The notes beneath the pieces are model-generated. The model made no database searches and was not told the DNA's origin. It worked only from the letters and a program-made list of their open reading frames with translations. Below, one piece after another: positions 206-44,960 of a DNA stretch of 64,000 bases. The stretch comes from Capsaspora owczarzaki ATCC 30864 (lineage: Eukaryota; Opisthokonta; Filasterea). A program made the position numbers and the translations under genes. Numbering within the stretch: position 1 is the stretch's first letter; every line of letters starts with the position of its first letter. The stretch covers positions 685,310 through 749,309 of the forward strand of contig NW_011887300.1 of NCBI RefSeq assembly GCF_000151315.2, given 5' to 3'.

Positions 206-1089
206 TAAATTGTCGAGTAACAGAAAAAAAAATCACCATTTTGTTTTAAAAACACTTTTCTTTTTTTTTTTTAAAAGTGCCGCATACGAGTTCATTGAGC
301 TGAAATCCAATGCAGGAGCTTGACTTTGGAGAAAGGGGCAATTTGCGAATGGAAAACGTGGGAAATGGGTGGCCTGGAGCGCTGTCATGGCGCAATGAAA
401 TGGTCTCTGAGAACACAATTGTTCTCTGGACACGTATACACTCGAGTCGAAGGTATATTTGAGATACGCACACAAACCCACCAAATTATAGCATAATTTA
501 CGACGGGCAATTGTTAAGAAAAGAACAATGCAAGCAAAACACCTTACATGACTCGATAGCAGCCATGTTTTTTTGGAGATTCGGAATTAATAATGTTGCG
601 ACCATGTGGCGAGGTATTCCGTCATACAAATCAACAAAGATGTTGGCAATAATATTTACACTGTGATTGCAAAGTACCGGCGCGCGGTGAGGGGTGTGTC
701 AGCGTTTGGTCAAGGCAGGAGTGGATGGTTTGGAGTTGGTATTTTGGGTTTTCCCTTGTTATATTTTAGTCAGTTCGTTCGTTTCCCCCCCCCCCGCTCT
801 CCTTTATGTTTCAAGTCGGCGTCCGTACTTGTCATCCTCGTCTATGCCATTGTTGTGCTGTTGTGTTTCTCAGTCTTCTTGATGTTAGTCTTTGTTCGTT
901 GTTGTTGTGGCGACGCTTTTGTTTGTTTTCTTTGTTTGCGTCGCTGCCGCACTTTTCGTGCGTTTGACACCGCCTGGAGTCTGCACTCTGCGTTTGAGTG
1001 ATGATTTGTGCAAGCACAACCAATAGACTGACTGAAAGAACCGCGTTGTTCCGATAGATCGAAAGTCAATGATGCTGTTGTACTAGAGT
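206..1089. other. Intergenic, no gene recognised
   Basis: A poly-T run sits at about 259-272 and a C run at about 786-795. Open frames here are short, T-rich and without recognisable domains. I see nothing that supports a gene between the MOCOS end and the LRR gene start. Confidence 0.5.
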
Positions 1090-3581
1090 ATGAGCGCGAG
1101 ACAGCGCCAGTTGTACGACAAAGTCAAGAAAGCGCGTGAATGGTTCGGGTAGGAAAAAGCCGAAAGAAAGTGTGACGACATGTGTACTGATGAAATGGAG
1201 GATAGACAGGAGTACAAGCATATTGACGATGCCGACGCACAAGCGATTGCTGAAGGACTCAAAGGCAACCCGAACGTGGAGAAACTCAAGTGAGTCATCT
1301 TGCTTCGAGTGTGGAACGTGAGTGGGTGGCTTCGGCAGAGGACAGCAAGAGTGGCTCACTATTGGAGGGGACGGACAGTCTGGGCTGGAATCAAATTGGT
1401 GATGCTGGAGCGCGGGCGATTGCTGAGACGCTCAAACTCAATATGACGGTAACTGAACTGCGGTAGGTCGTCTATCTCCCTATGGCTAGTGCATGTGAGT
1501 GGGTGATATCAACAGAGAACATTTAGAGTGCTCAGTGGTGAATGGGACGGACAAGTCTGACTAAGAATCAGATTGGTGATGCTGGAGCGCGGGCGATTGC
1601 TGAGACACTCAGAGTGAACACGACAGTGACCGACCTTGGGTAAGGCAATTCGCTTCGATTGATGCGTGTGAGTGGGTGATGTCAGCAGAGGACATTTAGA
1701 GTGCTCACTGATGTGACGGACAGCCTATGGAAGAATCAGATTGGCGATGCTGGTGCCCATGCACTTTCTGCGGCACTCAAAGTGAACAAGACGTTGATCA
1801 AGATCGAGTAAGGGGTGTCACTTTCACTCAACAGGAGGCATTTAGAGTGCTCATTGATGGAGGGGATGTACAGTCTGAATGGGAATCAGGTTGGCGATGC
1901 TGGAGCACAGGCGATTGCTGAAATGCTCAGAGTCAACACAACAGTCACTCGCCTCAGGTAAGTCATCTCACTTTGATGTGAGTCGATGATCCAGCAGAGG
2001 TGCCCAGAGTGCTTACTAACGACTGAGCAGTTTGTACAATAATAAGCTTGGCGATGCTGGAGCGACGACGATTGCTGAGATGCTCCAAGTAAACAAAATA
2101 CTGACTTCGCTCGGGTAAGGCATCTCACTTTAACTGATGTTTGTGAATGAGTGATGTCAGGAGATGGTCTTCAGAGTGCTTACTGATGGAAGGGAATGAA
2201 CAGCCTGGACTACAATCAGATTGGCGATGCTGGAGCGAACGCAGTTGCAGAAGCACTCAAAGTGAACACGTCCTTGCAAGCGCTCGAGTGAGTCACATCA
2301 CATTTGCTGGCGCTTGTCAGTGGGAATATTGTCAGCAAAAGGCTCATCGATGGAGCAATTTGACAGTTTGGGCAAGATTGGCAACGCCGCAGCGCAGACA
2401 ATGGCTGAAGTACTCCAAATGAACACGACGCTGACTCATCTCAGGTAAGGCATATCACAGTTTCTGATGCATGTGATTGGGTAGCAGAGGGCACTCAAAG
2501 TGCTCATGGAATGGAACGGACCGACAGTCTGGGTCTAATTGGCGACGCAGAAGCACAGGCCATTGCTGAGGCACTCAAAGTGAACACGACCTTGACTGGT
2601 CTCAGGTAATCCAATTCACTTTGACTGATGCATACGAGTGACTGATTCAGCAAATGGCATTCAAATGCTCACTGATGGAGAGGAATGGACAGTCTGTGTT
2701 GCAATCAGATTGGTGACGCTGGAGCGAAGACGATTGCTGACGCACTCAAGGTGAACACGACATTGTCACGTCTCTGGTATGTCATCTCTCCAACGATGCT
2801 TGTGTATGTGCGATCCAGCAAAACGAATTCAGGGTGCTCACGAATGGAGAGAATTCACAGGCTCAAGCAGAATCAGATCGGCAATGCTGGAGCGCAGGCA
2901 ATCGCTGAAGCACTCAAGGTCAACACGAGGCTGACACATCTTGGGTAAAGCATCTCACTTTACAGATGCTTGTGAGTGGATGATTCAGCAGGGGGCATTT
3001 CAATGCTTACTGATGGATGTACAGTCTGAGTGAGAATGAGATTGGCAATGCGGGAGCGCAGGCGATTGCTGAGGCACTCAAGGTGAACTCGACGCTGACT
3101 CGGCTCTTGTAAGGCAGCTATCCCTCATAGTTCCACTTGAGCTAACTGATGGATGGAACGCACAGTTTGGAAAACAATCAGATTGGCGATGCTGGAGCCC
3201 AGGCGGTTGCCGAAGCGTTCAAGATGAACCCGAAGCTGGTGGATATTTGGTATGGGTATCATGCGCTTTGACTTTGAGCCAGGGTGAGCATACATCCTGC
3301 TCACTCACTCGCATTGCTCAACAGTCTAGCCCGAAATTGCATTAGCAATGCTTGTTCTCAAGCAATCAGAAAATGCACAGACACCGGCAAAACGGGGCCT
3401 ACGTAAGCTAAGTTGTCCTTGCGAAACGAAGCCATTGAAGCTCACGCGAGCTGCTTCCAACCAATGAAGTGTGCCTTCCGATTGCTCATTTACGGTGCTT
3501 GTTCGTTGCACAGCATTTCCGAGCAGGTTAACCCTCTTGCACTCTCCTTACTTCCACGCTTCGCAACCGCTGACGACCTTC
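1090..3581 (+). CDS. LRR (ribonuclease-inhibitor type) protein 1, one repeat per exon, 3' end cut off by a chromovirus
   Basis: Exon 1 (1090-1148) encodes MSARQRQLYDKVKKAREWFG. Then come fourteen exons of 84 nt (three of 78), each one 28- or 26-residue LRR with core IGDAGAxAIAEALKVNTTLT: 1206-1289, 1379-1462, 1556-1639, 1724-1807, 1874-1957, 2031-2114, 2204-2287, 2367-2444, 2528-2605, 2693-2776, 2861-2944, 3025-3108, 3166-3249, 3325-3402. Every intron is phase 2 with GT-AG ends, so exons can be gained or lost without changing the frame. A last exon starts at 3514 (ISEQVNPLALSLLPRFATADDL) and runs straight into an LTR at 3582. The paralogue at 25.8-28.1 kb continues there into a further domain, so this gene has lost its C-terminus. 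The fold is known as a curved solenoid for protein binding. The partner is unknown and it lacks a visible NACHT or signal peptide. Confidence 0.75.
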
Positions 3582-3869: not shown

Positions 3870-6498
3870 GATCCCCGCACAAAGGATCGCGTCGTCCCTG
3901 ACGCGCTCAGGAATGGAGAAGCCGGGCAGCGGGCTTGGGCTTGCGAGGAAACTTGCGATGGAAATCGCGGACGAGGACCAGGAGGTTGGACGACTGGGAC
4001 AAGGGTTCCCAAGTTGTGTCGGAAGGGCTGAATCCTTCCCAGCGGCACAGATAAAAGAAATCTTCACCGCGACGCTCGACATCGAGAATGTCGGAAACTC
4101 TGTAAAGGATTTCGCCATCAACGATCTCAGAGTAGGGGAACGGCTGAGGGCGAGAGGAGCCAGAGCTGGAACGGAACTGTTTCAGAAGTGAAACGTGGAA
4201 GGTCGGATGGATCTTGAGGTCAGAGGGCAGAGACAGAGTGAAGGCAACATCGTTGACCTTGGAAGCAATGGGAAAGGGACCGATCCACTTGGGGTGGAGC
4301 TTGTTGAGAGAGCGGATGTTGGAAGTGCTGAGGAGAACTTGATCGCCAACTTGAAAATCCGGGGGAGGGATGCGATGCTTGTTCGCATGCTTGGTGTAAG
4401 CAGAAACAGCAGACTTGAGGTGGTCACGGACATTGGCTTGCACATCGGAAATGTGCGCGAGGAGACTGGTCGCATCAGGAGAAGGGGTCAAAGCGGGAGA
4501 AAAATCGAAACGCGGGTTGAAACCAAAGTTCGCATGGAAGGGCGAAACACCGGTAGAAGACTGGGCAGAAGAGTTGTAGGCAAACTCGGCGAGATGAAGG
4601 AGATCGGACCAGTTGTCCTGGCCAGCAGAGATGAAGCAGCGAAGGTACTGCTCAAGGATGCGGTTGATGGCCTCGGTCTGGCCGTCGGACTGGGGATGGT
4701 AGGCCGTGGACAGGTTGATCTTGGTGTTGAGGCTTGTGAAGAGATGATTCCAGAGGTGAGAAACAAAAACACTGCCACGATCACTCACAATATCGTCAGG
4801 GAGACCGTGGTAAAGGAAGACGCGGCGGATCAGGAGATCGGCGGTGCCAAGAGCGTTGATTCTCGTGGTACAGGGCATGAAGTGGGCCATCTTGGTCAGG
4901 CGGTCGACGACGACGCAGATTGCATCAAAGGAGTTGGAAGGAGGAAGCTGGGTGATGAAATCCATGGAGATGGATTTCCAGGGGTGCTCGGCAATGGGGA
5001 GAGGCTTGAGGAGACCATAAGGCTTGTGAGAGGAAGTTTTGCTGCGGATACAGGTCTCGCACGATTCGACATAGTGCTGGATCGTATCGTGCATCTTGGG
5101 CCAGTAGTAGTCACGCTGGACTAACTCGATGGTCTTGCGGATGCCAAAGTGACCGGCAGCATAGCTGTCGTGGCGGGACTCGAGGACAAGAGAACGGAGA
5201 TCGGCTGTACAAGGCCGACTTGAAGTAAAGGAGATCATCCTTTGTGGTGAACTTGGGGAAGCGGGAAGGGTCTTCAGCGATCTCGAGTGCGAGAATGTCG
5301 GTCGCTAAAGCTTGGCGGACGCGGGACAGGAAGTCGTCGGACATGACGGCAATGAGGAGTTTCTCGGGAAACATGGTGGTCGGAGTCTTGACCTTGGGGT
5401 CACCCACCCCCGTCGAAGAGGAACGAGAGAGAGCGTCAGGAAGAGTATGGAGGGTACCAGCGCGGTGGTAGACGAGGAAGAAGAAATCGGCGAGCACTTG
5501 GGCCCAACGGGTCTGGCGCGGGTTGAGGAGACGAGCGGTAGACCAGAACTCGATGTTTTTGTGATCGGTAATCACCTTGACAGGAACCTTGGCGCCGAGG
5601 AGGTAGTGCCGGAAGACCTTGAAGGACTCGACAATGGGACAGAGCTCTTTATCGTAGATGTTCCACGCAAGTTCAGAGCCAGTGAATTTGCGGGAATGGA
5701 AAGCAACGGGATGCGCAACGCCGGTGTCATCGAGCTGGGACAGAATGGCACCGAGAGCAAAATCGCTGGCATCGGTCTCGAGGATGAAAGGCTTGGAGGG
5801 GTCAGGATAGGCAAGGACGGGCGCGGAGGTGAAAGAATGCTTGAGGAAGGCAAAAGCAGAGTCGCATTCGGGTGTCCACTTGAAAGGGACATCCTTGCCG
5901 AGGAGCTTGGTGATAGGAGTAATCACACCGGAAAAGTTCTTGATGAAACGGCGGTAGTAGTTGGCAAAGCCGAGGAATTTCTGGACGGCGTGGACAGTTT
6001 CGGGCACCGGCCAGTTGAGGACTGCAGAAAGCTTGGCAGGATCCATCTTGACGCCATCCTTGGAAACGATGTAGCCAAGGAAGAGCACCGAGTCGGAGTG
6101 GAAGACAGATTTTTCCAGCTTGACGTAGTGCTGGTTGTCGCGCAGAATTGTAAAAACACGGCGGACGAGAGGGACGTGGTTCTCGAGAGTGTCGGAGTGG
6201 ATGAGGATGTCATCGAGGTAGAAAACAACACCGATAATACCTTGGAGAAGAGAAGCGATGAATCTCTGGAAGCAGGCACCAGAGTTAATGTGGCCGAAAG
6301 GTGCCACCAGGAATTCGAAGAGGCCAAGTTGACAGCGGAAGGCGGTCTTGTACTCATCACCCTCCTTGACACGGAGTAGATGATAAGCAGAGCGAAGGTC
6401 GACCTTGGTGAAGATCTTGGAGCAAGAGGGGCGAGAGCGACTTGGACCAAGTTGGTCGATGAGCTCGGAGATGAGAGGAAGCGGGTAGCTGTTCGGAA
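3582..6498 (-). mobile_element. Ty3/gypsy chromovirus remnant, 5'-truncated fossil
   Basis: Read on the minus strand it contains the later part of a reverse transcriptase (YLDDILIHSD), RNase H (LETDASDFALG), a zinc-binding integrase N-terminus (H-x-H, then C-x-x-C), the integrase core (TAYHPQSDGQTEAINR) and a C-terminal chromodomain (FFYLCRWEGFSPSDTTWEPL). A chromodomain-bearing integrase places it among chromoviruses. A 288-bp LTR follows at the 3' side (3582-3869). Gag, protease, the start of RT and the 5' LTR are absent, and the reading frame is broken about once more, so it is a dead copy. It lies between two damaged host genes. Protein motifs are still easy to read, which suggests a geologically young but not current insertion. 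Confidence 0.88.
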
Positions 6499-6630
6499 TG
6501 CCTACTTACTTGCATGCATTACCTTGTATTGTTTGTCATGTCTCCCATACTGGGAATGGTTCATTCGTCAATATACCTTTATTCATGAACATTGCCTGAC
6601 AATCGACGTACCTTTGCACTGACTCTGACA

Positions 6631-9286: not shown

Positions 9287-12200
9287 TCAAGGCTTCTTGA
9301 CAGCACGAGACGGACCAACGCGCGGAGCGGCAGCAGCCGGAGCAGTGCGGGCGGCTGTGAATTCCGTGTCCGAGTCCTCGTCGAACTGCTGCTTGCGGCG
9401 ACCCTTGCCCTTATGCTGGGGCTTGTTGGCCTGCTTCTTCTTGAACTTGTTCAACAACCGTGTGCAGTTGGTCAGGTTACTGGCTGGCTGCCAGGACGGC
9501 TGAGGGTAATGCAAGTACTTGACCAGGTAGAGGTCGGCCTCACCGTTGTAGTCGAGAATGTCCTCGACCTCAACTTGCATTTCCACGTTGCCTTCGGCAT
9601 CCTTGACGGCAATCCGATTCGGGACGAACGGAGTCCGACCCTCAATCGAGCTAGGCACAGCCAGAGTCAGACGACTGACATGTACCGTGTCATGCATGCC
9701 GCTCAAAATGGGCGGAAGCTGCAGCTTGAAGTTAACCCCGTTGTCACGACACTCGAGAACTTCGAAGGGGCCGGCTTTGACAACGTCCAGCTTGTCGCTC
9801 GGGCGGTCTGACGGCAAGCCAACGCCCGTTGGGGTCTTCCTGCGAAGGTCGACCTGGTCACCGACCTTGATGACCGGGGGCTCACTGCGATGCTTGTCGG
9901 CCTCAATCTTCATGGCTTCGACGCGCTTGGCGTTGAACTCGGTGGCCTTGGCTTGCAGGTGCTGAATCCGCTTGATGTAGTCATCCACCGTGGTAACGCC
10001 CGCTGGCACTAAGTTGGCCGCGATGGCCTGAGTGCTTGCGTGGTAGCCATGGCTGAGGTAAAACGGGGAGACACCGAGACTGCTGTGCTCGCTGTTGTTG
10101 TAGGCAAGCTCGCAGAATGGCAAGAGCTCGACCCAGTTGTCTTGCTCATTGCTGAGGTAGTGTCGCAGGTACGTGATGATGTGCTGATTCACACGCTCGC
10201 ACACGCCATTCGTGGCGGGGTGGAAGGTGGTGGTGTGCTTCGCTTTGATGCCACACGCAGCCATCACTTGCTCAAACAGCTTGGAGGTGAACTGGGCACC
10301 CCGGTCGCTGGTGATGCTGGCAGGCACGCCGTGGAACCTCACGACACGATCGATAAAGAGGAACAACAGTGTTTCGACCTCTAGATCTTTGCATGCCAGG
10401 AAGTGCGCCAGGCGAGTGAAGCGATCAATGACCACGAGCACGTACTTCGCCTCCCCCGACTGCGGGAGAGGACCCAGGAAGTCCATGTGAATATCCATCC
10501 ACGGGCCCGAGGGGCGGCCGAGAGGCTTCAACAGGCCAGCTAGCTTGGTACGTGATGCCTTATTCTGCGCGCAGCGCTGGCAGGAATTGACGGCTTTCAC
10601 GACAAACTCGCGGAGCATGGGAAAGGTGAAGAAACGCCGAATGAGCGTTTCCGTGCGATCAGCGCCGCTGTGCCCGGCCATGAGGTGGTCGTGGAAAGCC
10701 TCAAAGACTTTGATCTGCTGTGACGCAGGCACCACGACCCTGTCCTGAGCGTCTCTCACGAGGCCGCTCACGAGGCGCTGACCTGGCGCGAGCTCCATGG
10801 GAGCCGCAGAGGTCGCCTCCTTGATGGCACGAAGCAGCTCAGGGAGATCGGCGCGCACGACCTGTAGCGCTTCTGCTTGCTCTTCCAGGTCGGCCCGCGC
10901 CAACTCGATGGATGACGCCACGAGCAGCGACGGGTCCAACAGACGCACCATGCGGTTGACCGGATCAAAAGAGGAGCGGGAGACGGCATCAGTCAAGACC
11001 TGCAGCGAGCCCGAGCGGTGCACGATCTCAATGTTGTACATGGCGAGCATGCCCGCGACGCGGATCAGACGAGGTGACAGATTCCGAGCCGTAGTGAAGT
11101 AGGATAAAGCCTTGTGGTCGCTCAGCACCGTGGTGCGGAAGCTGCTGGAAAGCACAAAGAAGTGGAAGCGCTTAAGCGAGGCGGTGACGGCCAGAAGCTC
11201 AAGGTCGTGTGCAGAGTAATTCTGCTCCGAGGCGGTGAGCTTGCGGCTGAAGTACTCGTCCGGCAACAGCTTGACCACGCCTTTCTCGTTCGTGTGCTCC
11301 TGCATCAATACGCCAGCCACAGCGCGGCTAGAAGCGTCACACTCGATGAAAAACTTCTTGTCCCAGTCCACGGGCTTGAGGAGCTCCGGCGCGGCGAATG
11401 CTTCGCGGAGAGCCTCGAAGGCGGCGATGCCCTCCTCGTGCCACACCAGCGGCCCTTTGCAGTCCTTGCGGACCATGTCAGACAGCGGGGCGGCCAAATG
11501 GGAGAAGCCCTTGATGTGGTCACTGTTGTACGCGGCGGCACCGAGGAAGCGCTGCATGGCCTTGACCGTGTCGGGACGCCTCCACTCCGCGATGGCGCGA
11601 GTCTTGGAGAACTGCGGAAAGATACCATCCTTGCCGACGACGTGGCCGAGGTACTCGACACTGGACACCATGAACTTGCACTTCTTGGCCGAGAGGGGCA
11701 GCCTGGCGTTCTTGAGGATGTCCAGAACGATGCGCAAATGGTCCATGTGCTCGTCGAAGCTGCCCGAGAAGATGAGCACATCATCCATATAAACTCGGAC
11801 AAACTTGACGCCGCGGAACAACTCGTCGATGTAGCGTTGCCACTCCATTGGCGCGTTGACCAGACCGAACGGCATGCGGCGAAAGGCGAAGGAGCCATCC
11901 TTGCAGATGAATGAGGTTAGCAGCTGGCAATCCTCCGCCACCTCGAGCCTGTGGAAGGCGGCGTCGATGTCGAGCGCCGTGTAGAACTCGTGGCCTGCGG
12001 CGTCCTGGAGGTGGTCCTGCACACGCGGCATCGGGTGCACAACACGAACAGTGATATTGTTGAGACCACGATAGTCAAAGACTGCTCTGTCCTTGCCACT
12101 CTGTGACGTGACGATCATTGCTGCAGCGGCTGTCCGCGGCTTCGAGCGGTCGATCACACCGGCGGCCAAAAGCTTGTCGATGTGCGCGTTCAGGTTGTCG

Positions 12201-14428
12201 TCCTCCACGGTAGAGCGGCGGCGCACTGCTGCAACGGGAGGCAACCGAGAGCCGGGCAGCAGGTCGATGCGCACCTTGACGCCTTTGACGGGTTGGTCGA
12301 ACAAGGGGTCGTCCGCGCAAAGCAGGACGACGTGATCGGGAAAGTGCTGCTGTAGAAAGTCACGCGCTGCTGCTGCAGCGTCCGAGGCCGAGGCCGTGGC
12401 GGTGGCGGTCGCGGTCGCGGTCGCTGTGGCGCTGGCGGCGTCCAGAACTGGCGTGGAGCGGCGCGACAGGAACCTCAGAGAGCCGTCGTGCAACCATTCG
12501 TAGCAGAGCGCGTGGCGACTCATGAAGTCTGCCCCAAGTACCAGGTCGTGATGCGAGCCATCAACGATGCGGGCGCGGATGTCATAGCGAACGCCTTGAA
12601 GGACGATCTCCATGACTGGCGTCTCATGGCTGATGGTTTTAGCCGACTTGTCGAAACCGACGAGCGTGGCGGGAGCACACGGCACGCGGCTCAGACCGCA
12701 GGAGGCTGCTAGGGCCTCGCTGATGAGAGTGACTTCAGCACCGGTGTCGTACAACGCCATGACCTCACGGGCGACGTGGTTGCCCCTCTGGTCAGCGCAA
12801 TGCAGCGTGGCTGGAACCTTGAAGCTGTGCTGTGCGCCACCGGAGGCGACCGCCAGCACTTGCAGGGTCTCGACGGACTGCTCGCCCTCCTGAACGCTGT
12901 TGGCGGCGAGGGTCGCAGCGTTGCTGCGCGCGTTGCCCGAGTTGCCGCCGGTGTTGCCACGAGCGACAGTTGAACTGCCGCTGGCCGCTGACGAGGAGGC
13001 AGCGGGCTGCAGGCGGGGCGACGGACAATCAGCGGAGATGTGACCAAGCCCTCGGCAATTGCGGCAAATGATACCCACAGCGCCTGAAGGGGCAGTCTTG
13101 GCAATGACGCCCACAGCGCCTGACGGAGCAGCCTTGGCAGCGACGCCGACAGCGCCTGAAGGGGCCGCCTTGGCTTTGCCCGAGCGCTTGGTCCCGCCCT
13201 GGGGATCGGCATCGAGGGGTGCGTCAGGCGCGACTGCCAACATTTCGCGCAAGCGCGTCGCGATGGCGGCCTGATCTTGTGCCGTGGTGATGCATTTGTC
13301 CAGCGCGCTGAGGACCGAGCCGGTCTCGAGATTCCTGAGGGCCGCCAAGATCTCCCGCAGCTTGACGGGAACACACCCCACTAAACAGGTGACAACAGTA
13401 TTCGAGACGACGCGGTCGTTCGCCTCGGACACCAGCTGGACGGCCCGAGCCAGCCGTTCCGGCAAGGTCTTCAGCAGCGCGATGTTGTGCGCTTGGGCTA
13501 AGAGGTGCAACAGCGGACTGCCCAGCTCCTCCGAGGCGAGCTTGATGAGCGCCTTTGGGTCGTCGAGCGGATCGGGATCGTCTGGCGCCTTGGCGGCTAC
13601 CTGCTCCATGATCTTCTTAGTGAAGCGTTCGCCGAACCTCAGCAGCAGCAGCTTGGAGAAACGGCGCTTGGTGGCCAGGTCTGGCTCATGCAGTTCCGCT
13701 TGGCGCCAGACCCCAAGGAGCGCGGAGCACGCGTCGTACAACGGGCCGATCGAGCTCATGTCGATTTTCCCGATGCTGTCGACCTGGCGCGAGAGATTAT
13801 CAAAGACATTTTGCATCCTAGTCGACTCGGCCTGCGCTTGCAACATCAGGCGGAAGGCCGCCATGACCTCGCCCGAAGAGGGAGCGGCCAGGGCGGCGGC
13901 GCTGAGGGCAGCTGCATCGGCTACCGGCGCAGGAGAGGCAGTCGCAACGGCTGGCGCTGCAACGGCTGGCGCTGCACCGGCTACCGGCGCAGGAGAGGCA
14001 GTCGCAACGGCTGGCGGCGCAGGGGGAGCAGCGGTTGAGGAACTCGAAGTGCCGCTCGCGGCGGACGAGGTACCCGCGCCAGTGGCATCCGTAGTTGCGT
14101 CGGCGGCCACAGCGGTGGCGCTGCGAGTGTTGGGCGCTGATCCTGCTGATGCTGTGCTGGGCACCGATGCCGGCATTGACGATACAAAACAGAAAGGAGA
14201 GTGGAGCTCATCCTTCCATTTCCGGAACCGATAACAAATAACAGAACAAAACGTGCTCTGCTTGCGCCTCATTGATTGGCGGAGGCTTATCGCGGAGCTG
14301 CGCCTGAGGTAAAGCCCGCGGCACACCTTCGACCACAAACACTCCAACCTCCAATCGGCGTCTTCGGGTTCCAGTGCAAGGAGTTCCGGACTCAGTACGC
14401 TTCCGCAAGCCGATGCTCCACCCACCAA
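9287..14428 (-). CDS. gag-pol polyprotein of the Ty3/gypsy element
   Basis: One open frame of up to 1713 codons; a methionine at 14176 (MPASVPSTASAG) is a likelier start than the upstream end of the frame. Order on the minus strand: an Ala/Thr-rich gag N-terminus; a helical capsid-like region; a zinc knuckle (CRNCRGLGHISADC, near 13060); a retropepsin motif (ALYDTGAEVTLI, near 12740); reverse transcriptase (FDYRGLNNITV and YMDDVLIFS); RNase H (FIECDASSRAVAGV); an integrase with H-H-C-C finger and catalytic core (DFLGPLP ... FHPATNGVCERVN); and a C-terminal chromo-like segment (VEDILDYNGEADLYLVKYLHY). This PR-RT-RH-IN order defines Ty3/gypsy. Gag and Pol share one frame, so no frameshift is needed here. 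It appears whole. Confidence 0.92.
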   Translation of the reverse strand: MVGGASACGSVLSPELLALEPEDADWRLECLWSKVCRGLYLRRSSAISLRQSMRRKQSTFCSVICYRFRKWKDELHSPFCFVSSMPASVPSTASAGSAPNTRSATAVAADATTDATGAGTSSAASGTSSSSTAAPPAPPAVATASPAPVAGAAPAVAAPAVATASPAPVADAAALSAAALAAPSSGEVMAAFRLMLQAQAESTRMQNVFDNLSRQVDSIGKIDMSSIGPLYDACSALLGVWRQAELHEPDLATKRRFSKLLLLRFGERFTKKIMEQVAAKAPDDPDPLDDPKALIKLASEELGSPLLHLLAQAHNIALLKTLPERLARAVQLVSEANDRVVSNTVVTCLVGCVPVKLREILAALRNLETGSVLSALDKCITTAQDQAAIATRLREMLAVAPDAPLDADPQGGTKRSGKAKAAPSGAVGVAAKAAPSGAVGVIAKTAPSGAVGIICRNCRGLGHISADCPSPRLQPAASSSAASGSSTVARGNTGGNSGNARSNAATLAANSVQEGEQSVETLQVLAVASGGAQHSFKVPATLHCADQRGNHVAREVMALYDTGAEVTLISEALAASCGLSRVPCAPATLVGFDKSAKTISHETPVMEIVLQGVRYDIRARIVDGSHHDLVLGADFMSRHALCYEWLHDGSLRFLSRRSTPVLDAASATATATATATATASASDAAAAARDFLQQHFPDHVVLLCADDPLFDQPVKGVKVRIDLLPGSRLPPVAAVRRRSTVEDDNLNAHIDKLLAAGVIDRSKPRTAAAAMIVTSQSGKDRAVFDYRGLNNITVRVVHPMPRVQDHLQDAAGHEFYTALDIDAAFHRLEVAEDCQLLTSFICKDGSFAFRRMPFGLVNAPMEWQRYIDELFRGVKFVRVYMDDVLIFSGSFDEHMDHLRIVLDILKNARLPLSAKKCKFMVSSVEYLGHVVGKDGIFPQFSKTRAIAEWRRPDTVKAMQRFLGAAAYNSDHIKGFSHLAAPLSDMVRKDCKGPLVWHEEGIAAFEALREAFAAPELLKPVDWDKKFFIECDASSRAVAGVLMQEHTNEKGVVKLLPDEYFSRKLTASEQNYSAHDLELLAVTASLKRFHFFVLSSSFRTTVLSDHKALSYFTTARNLSPRLIRVAGMLAMYNIEIVHRSGSLQVLTDAVSRSSFDPVNRMVRLLDPSLLVASSIELARADLEEQAEALQVVRADLPELLRAIKEATSAAPMELAPGQRLVSGLVRDAQDRVVVPASQQIKVFEAFHDHLMAGHSGADRTETLIRRFFTFPMLREFVVKAVNSCQRCAQNKASRTKLAGLLKPLGRPSGPWMDIHMDFLGPLPQSGEAKYVLVVIDRFTRLAHFLACKDLEVETLLFLFIDRVVRFHGVPASITSDRGAQFTSKLFEQVMAACGIKAKHTTTFHPATNGVCERVNQHIITYLRHYLSNEQDNWVELLPFCELAYNNSEHSSLGVSPFYLSHGYHASTQAIAANLVPAGVTTVDDYIKRIQHLQAKATEFNAKRVEAMKIEADKHRSEPPVIKVGDQVDLRRKTPTGVGLPSDRPSDKLDVVKAGPFEVLECRDNGVNFKLQLPPILSGMHDTVHVSRLTLAVPSSIEGRTPFVPNRIAVKDAEGNVEMQVEVEDILDYNGEADLYLVKYLHYPQPSWQPASNLTNCTRLLNKFKKKQANKPQHKGKGRRKQQFDEDSDTEFTAARTAPAAAAPRVGPSRAVKKP

Positions 14429-37449: not shown

Positions 37450-38259
37450 CGTGCAGATGCGTTGTTTGTCGCATCTCAGCCAGCGGCTTTTTGTTGTTGA
37501 CCTGAGCTCAGCCGTATGAACGCTGTGTTTTTCCGTTTCCATCCACTTTTTTTGATGCTTTGTGCGTTTTTGCATTCATTCAAAACTCACTCTTTTTTTT
37601 TTTGCATTCATTTACTTGACAAATTCAGGTTTGTTACGACCTTTTTTTCCTTTTTTGTTGCTGTTGTTGTTTTGTTGGTTTCTCGTTGTTGTTTTTTCCT
37701 ATTCAATCTTGATCCGTCGCGACGTCATGTTCGCGCCAAAACACACAAAGACACATTATCTCATCCACCAGTCATGTCACGTCCGCTACACACACAATCG
37801 CACATACACGCATCATCTCATCCAACACGCCAAACATGGGAATGCACGGATGGCTTGTTGTCGCTGTGGTTGTCGGAGTCGCGTGGCTGTTGTCTTTGGG
37901 TGAGGATTGCTCCCGTTGAGCTCGGTCTGTGCCATCGCCCAGAGCCCTGGCACCAGCATTGCCATGCAATCGGCTTGACTCGGGTTGTGTTGACGTCGAC
38001 GATGGTCGTGGTGCGTGGGGTGGGTGGTGCGGAGTGATGGGATTGGGCTGGCATTCGTCGTAGTTCCAACACGAAAATAACCGCTTCGCGAGTGAGCCCG
38101 CTCTGTCGTCGAGTCTCATGACAAGGGCGATGAACGCGACGGAAAACACTACCCAAGCGGTGGACTGCACCTGTCGTGGGCTAAATTAAAGAAGGCCAGA
38201 AGGAGTGGAGCTCAGATTTGCCCCAATTGCGAGCTGTCTGATTATTTGATCTTTGTAGA
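37450..38259. other. T-rich intergenic or 3' UTR sequence
   Basis: Pyrimidine-rich DNA follows the PPxY gene stop. Open frames here (for example 37516-38037) are composed of Phe, Leu and Cys from T runs and show no domain. Probably 3' UTR plus spacer. Confidence 0.5.
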
Positions 38260-40845
38260 ATGGGTGGTGCAAATTCATCACGGCAGCGTGAGCTGTTTGA
38301 AACCGCCAAGTCATTCAGTTCGGTCGTGTAAGTATTGTTCAAGAATGAAGCGTGGTTGTTGCTTCGCGCTGACTTGATCTACTATAGACTCAGCAGCTCG
38401 GGAATTACTGACGAAGATGCCTTGGTGATTGCCGAGGGTCTCAAGCAGAACAACCATTTGCAGATGCTTGAGTAAGGCAGTGGCAAGGAAGTGAGTTGCT
38501 CAAGAAGATTCTAACATGAAATTTGTCGAATAGTTTGAGTGATAGCCAGATTGGCGACGCGGGAGCACAGGCGATCGGATTGGCACTTCGGAACAAGCCG
38601 ACCCTAGGTTTCCTGAAGTACGATCTGCCACTGTCACAGGGGGCTGTTGGTCGCACGAGTCTCACTTGATCAATGGATACAGCTTGAGCGAGAATAAGAT
38701 TGGTGATGCAGGTGCTCGTGCCATCGCTGAAGGCCTGCAGACCTCGACAACTGTGACTGAGCTCTGGTATTGTAGTAGTGGCACGCTTGACCCTTTGGTG
38801 GCATCTTCGTCTGTGCTAAAGAATGGTTTTGTACTCATGTTTGTCCGACATAGGATGCGCCGCAATCAAATTGGTGACGAGGGAGCACAGGCGATCGGAT
38901 CTGCGCTTCAAAAAAAGGCGAATCTCTCTATTCTGCAGTACGTGCTTGTGTCTTGACAGGAGTTATGATGGGATTGGTCGCAAAGGCTCTCACTTGACCG
39001 AGTTGATACAGCCTGAGCGAGAACAAGATTGGTGACATTGGAACTCGTGCCATCGCCGAAGGCCTGCAGACATCGACTGCTCTGACTCAGCTCTGGTATT
39101 GTTGTCGCACGCTTGAGCTTTTTGCCGCATCTCCGGCTTCGCTCAAATATGTCTTGGTTCTGATGTTTGACTGAGTTAGGATGTTTACCAATCAAATCGG
39201 CGACGCAGGAGCGCAGGCGATCGGATCTGCACTTCGGAACAAACCAAACCTGTCCATTCTCCAGTACGAACTTGTGTTGCCACAGGAGGAATGACAGGAT
39301 TGATCACAAGGCTCTCATTTGAACGATTTGCTGCAGCTTGAGCTGGAACAAGATTGGTGATGCCGGAGCTCGAGCCATAGCCGAAGGCCTGCAAACATCG
39401 ACTGTGTTGACTGAGCTCGGGTATTGTAGCTGCACGTTTGACCTGTGGTCGCATTGACAGCATCGCTTACAAATGAGTTGTTTCTGATGTCTGTCTGGTA
39501 TAGCTTGCATTCCAATCAAATCGGCGACGCCGGAGCACAGGCAATCGGATCTGCACTTCAGAACAAGGCAAACCTGTCTGAGCTCTAGTACGTTCTGGTG
39601 GTGTAACAGGGGCGACTGGTCACACGGCTTTGACTTGACCGATTTGATACAGCATGAACAATAACATGATTGGTGGCACTGGAGCTCGTGCCATCGCTGA
39701 AGGCTGTCAGACGTCTACTGCGCTGACTGACTTCAGGTATTTTATTGCGGCGCTTTGACCTTTTCGTCTTACATGCAGCTTTGCTCACGAATGGTTTGCT
39801 ACGTGATGCTTTTCTGACATAGGATGCAGGCCAATCTAATTGGCGATGCGGGAGCACAGGCGCTCGGACCTGCGCTTCAAAACAAGGCAAATCTGTCCAT
39901 TCTCTAGTACGTTTTGGTGTTACAGGGGCTATTCGTCGTCCGGCTCTCACTTGACTGATGTGACACAGCTTGAACAGCAACAATATTAGTGACACTGGAG
40001 CGCTCGCCATCGCGGAAGGCCTGCACGCGAAGACTGCGCTGACTGATTTCAGGTATTGTAGTCGCACGTTTGACCTTTCGTCTTGCGTGCAGTTTTGCTA
40101 AAAGTGCATTGCTACTGGTGATTGTTTGACTTAGGATGAGCATCAACCAAATCGGCGACGCGGGAGCACAGGCGATCGGATCTGCGCTTCGAAACATGGC
40201 CAACCTGTCTATTCTCTCGTACGTTCTTGTGCTGAAACAGGGGCTATTGGGCGCGCGACACTCACTTGGCCGAGTTGATGCAGCTTGGGCGAGAACAAGA
40301 TTGGTGACACTGGAGCTTGTGCCGTCGCTGAAGGCCTGCAGGCAACGGCTACGCTGACTCAGTTCGGGTATTGTAGTTGCATGATTGAGCTTCTGTCGCA
40401 CCTCCGTCTTTGCTCAAGAATGGCTTGGTTCTGATGTTTATCTGACATAGGATGTCAGCCAATCAAGTCGGTGACGCTGGAGCACGGGCTATCGGATCTG
40501 CACTTCGGAACCAAACAAACCTGTCGAAACTGCAGTAGGTCCAGTTGCGGCACAGGGGCGATGGTCGTGCGGCTCTACATGGAGGAATAAGATGCAGCAA
40601 CATGAGATATCGAATACTGAGCGTCGTTGACAATTTGTTTTTGCGTTCATGCTTGCCATAGTCTGTCAGACAACCAGATCTCCTCAAGTGCTGTTCAACT
40701 TTTATCCCAAAGCCTTCCCACAAATTGCGAGTTGGCGTGAGTTGGACTTGCCTCGTTCGGTGTTTGTGACTGTATTGCCTTTCTGACCTGATTCATTAAC
40801 AGGGCCGAGCGCCAGCGCATCCCCGCTCAAGATGCAAGAAATTGA
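38260..40845 (+). CDS. LRR (ribonuclease-inhibitor type) protein 3, alternating A/B repeats, possible N-myristoylation
   Basis: Exon 1 (38260-38327) encodes MGGANSSRQRELFETAKSFS; exon 2 (38388-38471) is the first LRR. Fifteen one-LRR exons of mostly 84 nt follow, all with phase-2 GT-AG introns, and the last exon (from 40803) encodes ERQRIPAQDARN and stops at 40843-40845. Repeats alternate strictly between type A (NQIGDAGAQAIGSALQNKAN) and type B (NKIGDAGARAIAEGLQTSTT), so the duplicating unit is a two-exon dimer of roughly 310 bp. Introns also alternate: GTACG-type donors after A exons, GTATTG-type after B exons. The N-terminal Met-Gly-Gly-Ala-Asn-Ser fits the N-myristoylation pattern, absent from LRR proteins 1 and 2, so membrane attachment is possible. 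No C-terminal domain like that of protein 2 is present. Ligand unknown. Confidence 0.75.
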
Positions 40846-41483
40846 TAGTCTTGGGGCGAGAGGCGGAATCAGAGGAGCGACTTACCCGAACAGATCAACA
40901 GCGTTATTCACTTGAGCTCGCTGGAGCAAAGGAGGAAAGGGAGGGGAAGGGAGAGCAGTGACATTTGTTTGACGTGCCTCGATGATGTGCTGAATTCTGC
41001 TGTACTCAATGCGATATTTCCGTTCCACACGATGCGAGATGCGTTTGCTTTTCATGTCTGGACCATCTTGTCTGGTGTGTGGTTTCAAATCGAGAGAGGA
41101 CGCCGAGCTTGGCCAATTGGCAACTTTTGTTCCTCAGCAATCCCGCAATTCAAGGCTGCGTTGTCAAGCTTAATGGCTTTAGCGTCAGCAAGCAAACAAC
41201 CAACGACCGACATTCGACATGCTCGCAACCCTGAAATCTACGAAACGACAGGACGCAACCCTTTCCGCTCCTTTCTGCAAATCTGGCTTCTAGCTCTGCT
41301 GTTTGTTTGTGCTTTTCAGTCCAAGTCGTTCAACGTCATTCAAAGCGAAAAACCTCCACAATCCTAAAACAGAAAACAAAAACCCATCCAAAAGTAAGAA
41401 ATGTGACAACAAAAATGATAAAACAAAAATTACAATAAAACAAAGAAGAATAAAAATAAAAACGGAAAATCTTGTTTTGGAGA

Positions 41484-41555
<72 letters not shown>

Positions 41556-42109
41556 GGGGGTTAAATTTTGGGGGTTTTTTTTTTTTTTTTTTTTTTGGGG
41601 TTTCTTTTTCCCCCTTTTTTTCCTGGCCCAAAAAAACCCCAGGCAAGGGGGGGCCCCCTTTTGGGGGGCTGGTGGCCACGGGGCCCCGTCCCCCGGTCTT
41701 TGCGGCGGCGTTGGGGTTGTGGCCCTGTGGCCCGCCCCCCGTTGGGGCCGCCACCCCGATGGGGGTCACCCTTCCCGCGTGTACGCCTTCCCTCCTTTTG
41801 TGGCAATGCCAATTTTCTTCCCATCCTTGGGGGCTCCCCCCCCCCCCGCGCCTCTCGACCAACCGCTGTGGCTTTGTTCGAGTTGAAAGCGAGATTTTTA
41901 TGGATTTTTTTTCTTTTTTTTTTTTGCTGCTTTTGCTATTTTGATCTATCGGCACTTTGTCTGCACTCGTCGCTCGTGGGGAGTCTGGCGGATGCATCAG
42001 CAACAATCGCATTCGCTTGCACATGGTACTGTGGCGGGCGCGAGTCGCGCACGTCCCTGAAGGAAGGTGGCAGCGTTGATGCGAGAACGAGACATAAAAA
42101 TCACAACCA

Positions 42110-42145
<36 letters not shown>

Positions 42146-42268
42146 CCAAAACTTCCAAAAAACCCAACAACAACAACTCTAAGTTTTACTTTCAATGGTG
42201 AATGCAAGTGAATGCTCAAATTCATGCTCAAATTCATGCTCAAACTGTGTTTGCTGTTTCTGTTCCAG
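40846..42268. other. Spacer with homopolymers and suspect sequence; may hide the first exon of the receptor gene
   Basis: It contains an unsupported frame (40912-41367), an approximately 65-base T run followed by abnormally run-rich sequence (41489-41870) and a poly-A run (42109-42144). A signal-peptide exon for the receptor-like gene would be expected here, but I could not fix one. Confidence 0.5.
41489..41870. other. Probable low-quality sequence after a long poly-T
   Basis: After about 65 T residues nearly every base is in a lengthened run (gggggg, ccccc, ttttttt, gggcccccttttgggggg) until about 41870, after which normal composition returns. This is what polymerase slippage gives in a Sanger read past a homopolymer, not what any known element looks like. 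Confidence 0.7.
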
Positions 42269-44960
42269 ATTGCACATTCAAACGCGATGGAAACGTGGTT
42301 ACCGAGCCACTCCTTGCCGATTACTATCTTCTGCCCGAGATTTTTCAATGCAAATCATGTCAGTTCTGGAACAACGCAGTTTGTTTTTGTGATTGTGTTG
42401 CGTGTGTGTGTGTGTGTTCGATTTAGCTTTGGCTCTTTAGCTCAATTTCGCACTCTGTTTGTTCGGTTTACTTCAGTGGACTACTTGCGCATCCAGTACC
42501 TTGGCGACTCATACAGCTTCCCAAACCTGGTTTCAGCAAACTGGCTTTATGTCACGAGTTCCGAACAGACTGTGACATTCCCAAACCTTGCTACCGTCGA
42601 TAAGCTCGACATTGGCGACCCCACCTCCAGTGATTCAATCTCCTTGATGTTCCCTGCACTGTCTACTGTCGCTTCTGCCTACTCTGTGTCGTTCTCGGCC
42701 GTTCGCGCACAATTCAGCCACGCTGGCCTCACAACTATCGGTACTTTGACAACCACAAACAAACTGACCTCTCTTGTGCTCCCTGACGTGGTCAGTGTGG
42801 CCTCGTTCAACGCGACAGCCTTGGCCACCTTGACTGCGGGTTCCCTGCAGTCCATTGGTAGCCTGACGTTCCCTGCGGGCGCTGTCATGGCGACCCTGAC
42901 TCTGCCAAGCCTGCAGACCATCACAACTCTAAGCCTTGGAAGCTCGGCCCTGACAACTGTCACCTTGCCCACCCTGGCATCAGTCGGCTCTTTCACAGTT
43001 CAGACGGGAGCCGGCCTGACTTCTTTGACGTTGCCCAAGCTCCAGACCATCACAACCCTCAGTCTCGGGAGCGCCGCTCTGACAAGTCTCACCATGGCCA
43101 CTCTCACCTCAGTTGGCTCGTTCACCGTTCAGACGGGCGCCGGCTTGAGTGCTTTGACGTTGCCCAAGCTCCAGACCATCACAACCCTCAGTCTTGGAAG
43201 CGCAGCTCTGACAACTCTCGCTTTGGATACTCTGACATCCGTGGGTTCTTTCGCAGTTCCGACGGGAGCCGGCTTGACGGCGTTAACGCTGCCAAAGCTG
43301 CAGACGGTGACAACCTTCAACCTTGGGAGCTCGGCGCTGACCTCTCTCACGATGGTCACCCTTGCATCAGCGGGCACTTTCACAGTTTCAGCTAGCGCCG
43401 GTCTGAAGTCTTTGATTTTGACAAACCTCCGAACGGTCTCCACATTGACTCTCGGCGCTCCAACGGTGCAGACTCTCGATCTGAGTGGGCTGCAGACGGC
43501 CGGTACTTTGACGTTCCAACAAACGGCAACCGACTTTATCACCATGCCCGACCTGGCTCAGGTTGCTAACTTGGCGATTGTGAACACCAAACTGACCCAT
43601 GTGCAATCCATCGGCTCGAACGGCTTGTCCATCACCAACAGTCTCCAGATCACCGACAACTTAAACCTATGTGGCTTGTCCTTTGTCTATGCCAAGTGGA
43701 CGTTGCCATCTGGCTCCGCCGCTGTGAACATTGCCGACAACCGAGGGAACCTGCTTGCTGGTGCGGCGCAGGACTGTCTGGCCGTCAACTTCCCGCTTCC
43801 GCCACTGACGCTGACAAAGATCCAAGCGACCAATGTTTCAGTGACGCTCAACACGGTGCAGATGCTCGACACTTCCGGTCCAGTGCGGCAGTACCAGCTT
43901 TCCTATCGTCGTTCGACCGATGCGGCCTTTATTTCCACCCAAACTGTGGCCTACAACGGTGACACTTCGCTCTTGTACAAGCCTGGAAACAGTCGCCAGA
44001 TTCGGTGGAACATTACTGCGCTCGAGCCAGAGACGGCCTATTATTTCGAGGTGAAGGCTACCATTGGTGCTCCTCCTTCATCTGGCCAGCGATTCCTAAC
44101 GACATCTCTCAACGTGACCACGCTGTCCAATTCAGGTAAAACAACCCCCCCCCCAAAATATACTGTTGCATCTGTGTTTGGAGGAGGTGGGGGGGGGAAT
44201 GTAGCTTGCTGCTGTTTTCTGCCATCCCCGATGATGAAAGCGCATCCTTTCTCATGTTTCCTCGTTTTTTCTTCTTCTTCCCCTTTTGATTGGCGCAGGC
44301 AATCCCAATACGTCAGCACAAAGCAGCGGTGCAGATATGGTGCCGATCGGCGCTGGCGTTGGTGGAGGCATCGCCTTTTTGCTGATTGTCATTATCGTTC
44401 TGGTTGTGTCACGCCGTCGCAATCGCTCTTCTGTCCAAACCCGCGATTCCACCATGGAGCTGGCCAGCAACCCGATCTCCAAGAATAGCGCCAACACGGC
44501 CATCTACTCGTCTGTGGCCAAGCCTGTCAAACCAACCAAACCGACTGCCTCCAAGGCGGCGGAGAGCCTCTATGCCCCAGTTGCTGCCGACAGCATGTAC
44601 GCGCCAGTTGCCGATGCGACGGACGTCTACCAATTGCCCAGTGATCAGCGCAACAACGGCGACGGAGACCTCTACTCTGCAGTCGAAGGCGGCTACGCCA
44701 GCCCACCCGGTGCCAACGATGACGAAAGCAACTATGCCGCTCCCTTCGATCCGAAGGCTCCTCAGAAGGCCACCCACACTGGTTTTGCCGTGTACGCCGC
44801 TCCTGTCGACTCGGCTCAAGCTGCAGGCAGCACGTACGCGGCACCTGTCGACGCCGACACGTCCGGTCCGGAGTCGTACGAGTCTCCGCAGGCTCCTTCC
44901 TCCGCGGCTACTCCCGGTGCCATGCCAGTGTACGCCAAGCCCAACAAGGGCCCTCGTTAA
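42269..44960 (+). CDS. Type I membrane receptor-like protein with repeat ectodomain, FN3 domain and YxxP/YxxV tail (first exon not placed)
   Basis: Exons 42269-42358, 42477-44135 and 44299-44960 are in phase and give about 803 residues; the signal-peptide exon upstream is not identified. The ectodomain has Leu/Thr-rich repeats of about 43 residues (LTLPKLQTITTLSLGSAALT ... TSVGSFTVQTGAGL) that are repeated at DNA level too, probably a beta-solenoid related to receptor L-domains. A fibronectin III-like domain follows (YQLSYRRSTDAAF ... ITALEPETAYYFEVKA). A transmembrane helix (GGIAFLLIVIIVLVV) is stopped by SRRRNR. The tail of about 190 residues has 11 tyrosines: YSSV, YAPV twice, YQLP, YSAV, YASP, YAAP three times, YESP, YAKP. 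All have Pro or Val at +3, like SH2 sites for Crk/Nck-type adaptors or SHP-type ITIMs. There is no kinase domain. It is likely a scaffold phosphorylated by other tyrosine kinases. Confidence 0.78.

Follow-up and report, generated by a model that had tools for sequence, protein, structure and literature searches.

The gene examined here lies on the forward strand of a window of 64,000 nucleotides (bases 685310-749309 of contig 9) from Capsaspora owczarzaki ATCC 30864. When its cytoplasmic tail was used as a query against protein databases, it retrieved CAOG_05608, a hypothetical protein of this species. Exon 2 (42269..42358), delimited by its splice boundaries, encodes the start of the ectodomain (CTFKRDG...FQCKS), and the reading frame is kept across a GT-AG intron (42359-42476) into the ectodomain exon, exon 3 (42477..44135). 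A further GT-AG intron (44136..44298, phase 1) leads to exon 4 (44299..44960), which encodes the transmembrane helix and the entire cytoplasmic tail up to the stop codon at 44958-44960. Joined in frame, exons 2, 3 and 4 give 802 residues. The NCBI model (716 aa) falls within exons 3-4, starting inside exon 3, and has the identical exon 3-4 junction. The splice signals and the NCBI model together indicate that the ectodomain is spliced in frame to the helix/tail exon. The earlier note on this DNA had placed the tail behind a transmembrane helix and had considered that transcripts might separate the two; since exon 4 encodes both, this concern does not apply. In the stretch upstream of exon 2, no convincing candidate was found for exon 1 or a signal peptide. 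Just upstream of the gene (41480-42150), the window contains runs of 68 T and 34 A and many short homopolymers. This segment may be low-quality assembly and could hide exon 1.

Other parts of the window carry mobile elements and repeats. Two retroelement stretches on the minus strand (3907-6505 and 9287-14428) have matches to reverse transcriptase, RNase H, integrase and chromodomain; they are of Ty3/gypsy type by domain order, the second chromodomain being below Pfam's cut-off. A transposase ORF at 19348-20520 matches DDE_3 and a Tc3-type HTH. Rows of short exon-like leucine-rich-repeat units, mostly recognized by eye, occupy 1080-3400 and 38200-40800, with a match to LRR_6 in one frame (38546-38956).

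The AlphaFold model of the CAOG_05608 ectodomain (pLDDT ≥81 in 34 of its 37 leading blocks of ten residues) suggests a leucine-rich-repeat-like beta-solenoid encoded at 42485..43684. Foldseek matches to this model were weak, with 2 at E ≤0.001 and query TM-scores of 0.08 to 0.28 among the 50 matches listed; the structural matches given a second look were LRR proteins. The solenoid is followed by a fibronectin type III domain (FN3; 43805..44080), detected by Pfam PF00041 with 28 bits against a cut-off of 25. The FN3 domain is shared with LRR/FN3 surface receptors of FLRT-like layout, whose LRR solenoid may have a counterpart in the LRR-like part. At the sequence level, a genome search with the ectodomain (27.46 Mb assembly, 29 contigs; E 0.001) recovered nothing beyond the three exons of its own gene, and a single PDB sequence matched at E 0.54. 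Among 7992 proteins scored, 18 others reached E ≤1, many of them with LRR or receptor-L Pfam domains, and we do not claim orthology for them. A Pfam scan of the 802 residues from exon 2 onwards detected no kinase domain, and the tail reaches its stop codon without one. Thus, the kinase-less FN3/repeat architecture initially proposed for the protein was confirmed. The same scan gave no SH3 domain, the N-terminal part (exon 1 not located) being occupied by the LRR-like/FN3 ectodomain. There was also no Pfam match to an immunoglobulin domain, in place of which the protein has FN3 and the solenoid, or to a C-terminal FAT-like domain; the protein ends 8 residues past the last tyrosine.

The transmembrane helix, read from the sequence as IGAGVGGGIAFLLIVIIVLVV and followed by SRRRNR, is encoded at 44346..44408. 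From this basic run, the remainder of exon 4 (44409..44957) is predicted to be a cytoplasmic tail, and it contains 11 tyrosines. In order, these form YSSV (44505..44516), YAPV within SLYAPV (44571..44582), YAPV within SMYAPV (44598..44609), YQLP (44628..44639), YSAV (44673..44684), YASP (44694..44705), three YAAP sites (44733..44744, 44793..44804 and 44835..44846), YESP (44877..44888) and YAKP (44931..44942). The first YAAP reads YAAPF, as in an Abl test peptide (PMC4474922); the two others read YAAPV, in the contexts VYAAPV and TYAAPV. The last site, YAKPNK, resembles the YAKVNK of the paralogues described below. SLYAPV and SMYAPV are ITIM-like and fit the strict pattern [SIVL]xYxx[IVL] (2 of 11 sites, expected 0.2).

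As the earlier note had stated, every tail tyrosine has Pro (seven) or Val (four) at +3, with 0 exceptions. When the non-tyrosine residues of the tail were permuted with composition kept, 2.05 such sites were expected, and 11 were reached in 0 of 20,000 shuffles (hypergeometric 2e-9). For comparison, Pro or Val occupied +3 at 4 of 54 tyrosines in eight other stop-to-stop ORFs of the window and at 2 of 12 in the ectodomain exon. The +3 offset and the Pro/Val pair were picked post hoc and some motifs are local duplicates; the value corrected for 9 independent sites and 13 offsets x 190 residue pairs is 2.5e-4. A 19-nt unit accounts for the duplication: it is present three times, the diverged copies being 74 to 100% alike, and covers 3 of the 11 motifs. 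A simple tandem-repeat artefact was rejected, as only these three diverged copies are present.

At E 0.001, the tail query had no other match in the genome. The idea that the tail is unique was nevertheless rejected, because weaker matches led to three similar kinase-less receptors. The search at E 10 yielded a 541-aa frame on contig C5 (E 0.001), corresponding to CAOG_003858 (L035). This protein has Cys-rich repeats, a single helix and what looks like a signal peptide; at 15 of its 16 tail tyrosines, the +3 residue is P, V or L. Its tail in turn retrieved a third receptor, L041 (C8:937172-938152; E 2e-9). The pattern YA[KQ]VNK, for which the reversed control gave 0 sites, occurs 8 times in the genome, distributed over the C5 and C8 genes and one further gene on C4. 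This third gene is the fourth array receptor, L071 (C4:1053318-1053959), whose helix, different in sequence, lies in another frame and would be spliced to the tail. With the L071 tail as query, no further array was found. Pro or Val stands at +3 of 11/16 tyrosines in L035, 13/16 in L041 and 13/17 in L071. All three proteins resemble CAOG_05608 in that their kinase-less tails bear YAxP arrays, and L035 and L041 also share its GAGVGGG...RRRR type of helix. They differ from it in their ectodomains, which by eye are Cys-rich in L035 and L041 and Ser/Ala-rich in L071, in a C-terminal YA[KQ]VNK block and, for L035 and L041, in a YEELP motif. In protein searches, the CAOG_05608 tail matched only CAOG_05608 itself among 3318 candidates, with no orthologue outside Capsaspora. 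The C-terminal block of the C8 paralogue matched only CAOG_003858 among 1847 candidates, in a search with gaps that missed its own protein.

A query made of the C8 receptor's helix and YxxP segment gave 70 genomic matches at E 10, of which 21 reached E 0.001; CAOG_05608 was among them at E 3.5e-7. Thirty of the 70 were read by eye: 10 continue into an in-frame kinase, 3 into an SH3-like tail and 17 into neither. Most of these 17 have YxxL/I, YxxP or YxxV motifs, and two have no tyrosine. CAOG_05608 thus belongs to a varied group of Capsaspora receptors that have a transmembrane type in common. The three short SH3-like tails belong to L052 (C9:788338-788607), L055 (C2:1965949-1966221) and L067 (C9:973855-974085). 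Two of the receptor tyrosine kinases (RTKs) have juxtamembrane arrays of their own, with four YDNP sites in L050 (C15:723942-724352) and a mixture of YxxP and YAAY in L043 (C15:18877-19368).

We then compared the residues around the tyrosines with those expected from shuffling. From the 30 matches read, 14 kinase-less tails (including CAOG_05608) were retained, to which L071 was added. L048 and L062 (no tyrosine), L053 (a short frame that may continue in another exon) and the three SH3-like tails were left out, and nine of the ten RTK juxtamembranes were used, L069 being nearly equal to L066. In the CAOG_05608 tail, an aliphatic residue (ILVM) stands at -1 of 7 of 11 tyrosines (expected 1.3; 1 of 4000 shuffles as high) and Ala at +1 of 7 (expected 2.2; 4 of 4000), while +3 is Pro at 7 (expected 1.4; 0 of 4000) and Val at 4 (expected 0.7; 9 of 4000). 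In the four array tails together (60 tyrosines), the counts were 32 for ILVM at -1 (expected 6.7), 32 for Ala at +1 (10.2), 32 for Pro at +3 (7.1) and 16 for Val at +3 (3.0), and no shuffle out of 4000 equalled any of these counts. Without CAOG_05608, the three paralogues (49 tyrosines) had the same preferences, again with 0 of 4000 shuffles for each. The complete triple ILVM-Y-A-x-P occurs at 8 of the 60 tyrosines (expected 0.1; 0 of 4000 shuffles), of which 2 of 11 sites are in CAOG_05608 itself. As the array tails were found via one another, and one by the YA[KQ]VNK pattern, these preferences are neither independent nor unselected, and the signature is a family trait rather than four independent events.

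The single features are also enriched elsewhere. The 11 other kinase-less tails (93 tyrosines) have Ala at +1 of 31 (expected 11.7) and Pro at +3 of 23 (expected 8.7), and the nine RTK juxtamembranes (58 tyrosines) have ILVM at -1 of 25 (expected 9.5), Ala at +1 of 19 (8.9) and Pro at +3 of 15 (4.5). Each feature alone is therefore general among Capsaspora receptors. The triple, by contrast, was found at 0 of 93 and 0 of 58 of these tyrosines (8/60 versus 0/151, Fisher 3e-5). ABL kinases prefer an aliphatic residue at -1, Ala at +1 and Pro at +3, and strong selection of Pro at +3 is described for only four human kinases, both ABLs included (PMC11136658). The ABL1 motif is largely set by this proline (PMC10243146). 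Moreover, Abl2 of Monosiga brevicollis had its highest activity on EAIYAAPFAKKKG among five peptides, so that an IYAAPF peptide is the preference of this choanoflagellate Abl (PMC4474922). Taken with +3, the aliphatic -1 and Ala +1 thus suggest that an Abl-type kinase writes these sites; the earlier note had not proposed one.

Candidate enzymes and readers were sought among at least 34 SH2 matches in the Capsaspora genome, 30 of 34 being translated and three compared with the PDB. L007 is an ABL-like SH3-SH2-kinase gene whose nearest PDB entry is ABL1 (E 1.5e-80). The SH2 domain of L011 is nearest to CRK-II (5jn0; E 6e-27), with an SH3-like segment downstream by eye, and the SH2 pair of L008 is nearest to SHP2 (E 6e-89), with a PTP signature following it, again by eye. 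On these matches, Capsaspora encodes homologues of ABL, CRK and SHP2. Two Src-like genes were also recognized by eye among the SH2 loci, and the presence of crka in Capsaspora has been reported (PMC5043372). Given at least 34 SH2 matches, readers other than CRK and SHP2 may also act on the tails. At another SH2 locus, L024 (C13, from 54190), the open frame upstream of the SH2 exon (bases 1-1413) contains repeated SDYDDPWD (YDDP). This frame may belong to the SH2 gene and is possibly a cytosolic YxxP adaptor.

YxxP-repeat transmembrane proteins of choanoflagellates were described in 2016, with a mention of some in Capsaspora (Supplementary Table S6), and such pre-metazoan proteins were proposed as CRK partners (PMC5043372). 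The published examples are PTSG_05573, 12435 and 12436 of Salpingoeca rosetta and A9VAL3 and A9V449 of M. brevicollis. CAOG_05608 resembles them in being a transmembrane protein with several cytosolic YxxP and no Cas SH3/FAT domains. It differs in its ectodomain (LRR-like and FN3, rather than TSP1, Cys-rich or DUF5011) and in lacking the C-terminal SH2-like domains present in 3 of the 5. The SH2 domain of M. brevicollis crka1 binds phospho-YxxP, and it bound two phosphopeptides taken from one such choanoflagellate protein (PMC5043372). These bound peptides are YDVP, whereas CAOG_05608 has mostly Ala at +1, with YAxP/YSxP motifs predominating and YxxV mixed in.

Like p130Cas/BCAR1, CAOG_05608 carries a row of YxxP (7 of its 11 tyrosines). 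The p130Cas substrate domain docks Crk SH2 and undergoes multisite phosphorylation by Src, in which FAK and ABL participate (PMC5043372). Cas, however, is an adaptor located in the cytosol and possesses SH3 and FAT-like domains, neither of which was found by the Pfam scan of CAOG_05608, and PMC5043372 reports no bcar1 orthologue in Capsaspora or choanoflagellates. Our genome-wide CAS_C search gave 0 matches, its control being equally silent. ITIM/ITSM inhibitory receptors are of the PD-1 and CD22 type, the vertebrate examples having immunoglobulin ectodomains. CAOG_05608 shares with them the kinase-less tail with tyrosines, two of which are in strict ITIMs, but most of its sites are YxxP and no immunoglobulin domain was detected by Pfam. 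From receptor tyrosine kinases it differs by having no cytoplasmic kinase domain. The Cas-like docking array suggested at the outset is thus well supported as anatomy, with CRK and SHP2 homologues in the genome, but the array neither stands alone nor represents a new kind: three more Capsaspora receptors have similar tails, and the kind was already present in PMC5043372.

Our preferred reading, to which we give roughly even credence, is that CAOG_05608 is a kinase-less single-pass receptor whose array is written by Abl or Src, with CRK binding at YxxP and a second reader at YxxV. It builds on what the sequence shows, namely how the gene and its domains are laid out, the array of motifs, the paralogues and the ABL, CRK and SHP2 homologues. 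From these we infer phosphorylation of the tail, the identities of kinase and readers, a ligand and an output. The LRR-like/FN3 ectodomain would sense a surface or soluble ligand, and clustering of the receptor would expose the tail to an Abl- or Src-type cytoplasmic kinase. The Y-A-x-P/V repeats would be the substrates of this kinase, which would probably modify several sites on each molecule. Once phosphorylated, YxxP would recruit CRK, and thereby CRK's SH3 partners, to the membrane, while phospho-YxxV would recruit a second SH2 reader, with SHP2 as leading candidate, acting as a brake or terminator. The tail would thus act as an equivalent of the p130Cas substrate domain, built directly into a receptor.

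The YxxV sites could instead be the main ones, in an ITIM-like inhibitory receptor where paired YxxV recruit the SHP2 tandem SH2 and the Pro sites are secondary. SLYAPV and SMYAPV are indeed only 9 residues apart among four YxxV, an SHP2 homologue is encoded, and ITIMs are enriched both in the array tails (6 of 60 tyrosines against 1.6 expected) and in the 11 other tails (12 of 93 against 3.4). The ITIM consensus, however, does not allow Pro at +3, which is found at 7 of 11 sites here and 32 of 60 in the array tails, so that the Pro sites are excluded as ITIMs and the ITIM label used in the earlier note fits 2 of the 11 sites. This makes an inhibitory receptor unlikely. It is also unlikely that the tail is phosphorylated by, and works beside, Capsaspora RTKs as a co-receptor or substrate, rather than by Abl. 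The helix/juxtamembrane type is common to RTKs (10 of the 30 matches), and the enrichment of -1 ILVM, +1 Ala and +3 Pro in their juxtamembranes means that the motif may also serve RTKs or proteins partnering them. Against this role stand the full triple, found at none of the 58 tyrosines of the nine juxtamembranes but at 8 of the 60 in the array tails, and the small number of human kinases, both ABLs included, that strongly select +3 Pro (PMC11136658).

Two further explanations were considered. An unphosphorylated low-complexity tail that arose by local duplication, with a +3 pattern of no signalling role, would suit the richness in Ala, Pro and Ser and the three diverged 19-nt copies. We consider it very unlikely, as shuffles keeping this composition give 2.05 sites instead of 11, the duplicates account for only 3 of 11 motifs, and the pattern is kept in three other receptors. 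Least probable are tyrosine-based sorting signals (YxxPhi) for endocytosis: the four YxxV might act as weak signals of this type, but YxxPhi does not accept Pro at +3, the residue found at seven sites.

Beyond CAOG_05608 itself, we tentatively propose, with clearly less confidence than the Abl/Src-written receptor with CRK and a second reader, that Capsaspora has dedicated Abl-written, CRK-read tails on receptors with differing ectodomains, that the YxxV/YA[KQ]VNK block serves a further SH2 reader, for example SHP2, and that Cas-type docking is older than Cas. The name CAOG_05608 was not found in the literature searched, where Capsaspora and YxxP occurred together only in PMC5043372, and such tails are not mentioned in the available part of PMC5876402. 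As far as our searches extend, CAOG_05608 with its ectodomain, the four-tail family, the three-position Abl signature and the Pro/Val mix are new, although the receptor may be listed in Supplementary Table S6 of PMC5043372; the receptor YxxP-array kind is already known from that paper.

CRK, ABL and SRC are older than animals and Cas orthologues are described in animals only, and the pre-metazoan substrates of Src/Abl kinases are stated to be unknown in PMC5043372. The present tails, in which the substrate motif of Abl coincides with the one recognized by the Crk SH2 domain, bear on the origin of the Src/Abl-Cas-Crk adhesion pathway. Transfection of Capsaspora has been reported (PMC6001378), so that direct tests with tails of this kind are feasible. 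If the proposal is correct, multisite docking would have begun in receptors and would later have been moved by animals to a cytosolic adaptor, and a single tail would combine drive and brake in a two-part code of Pro and Val sites.
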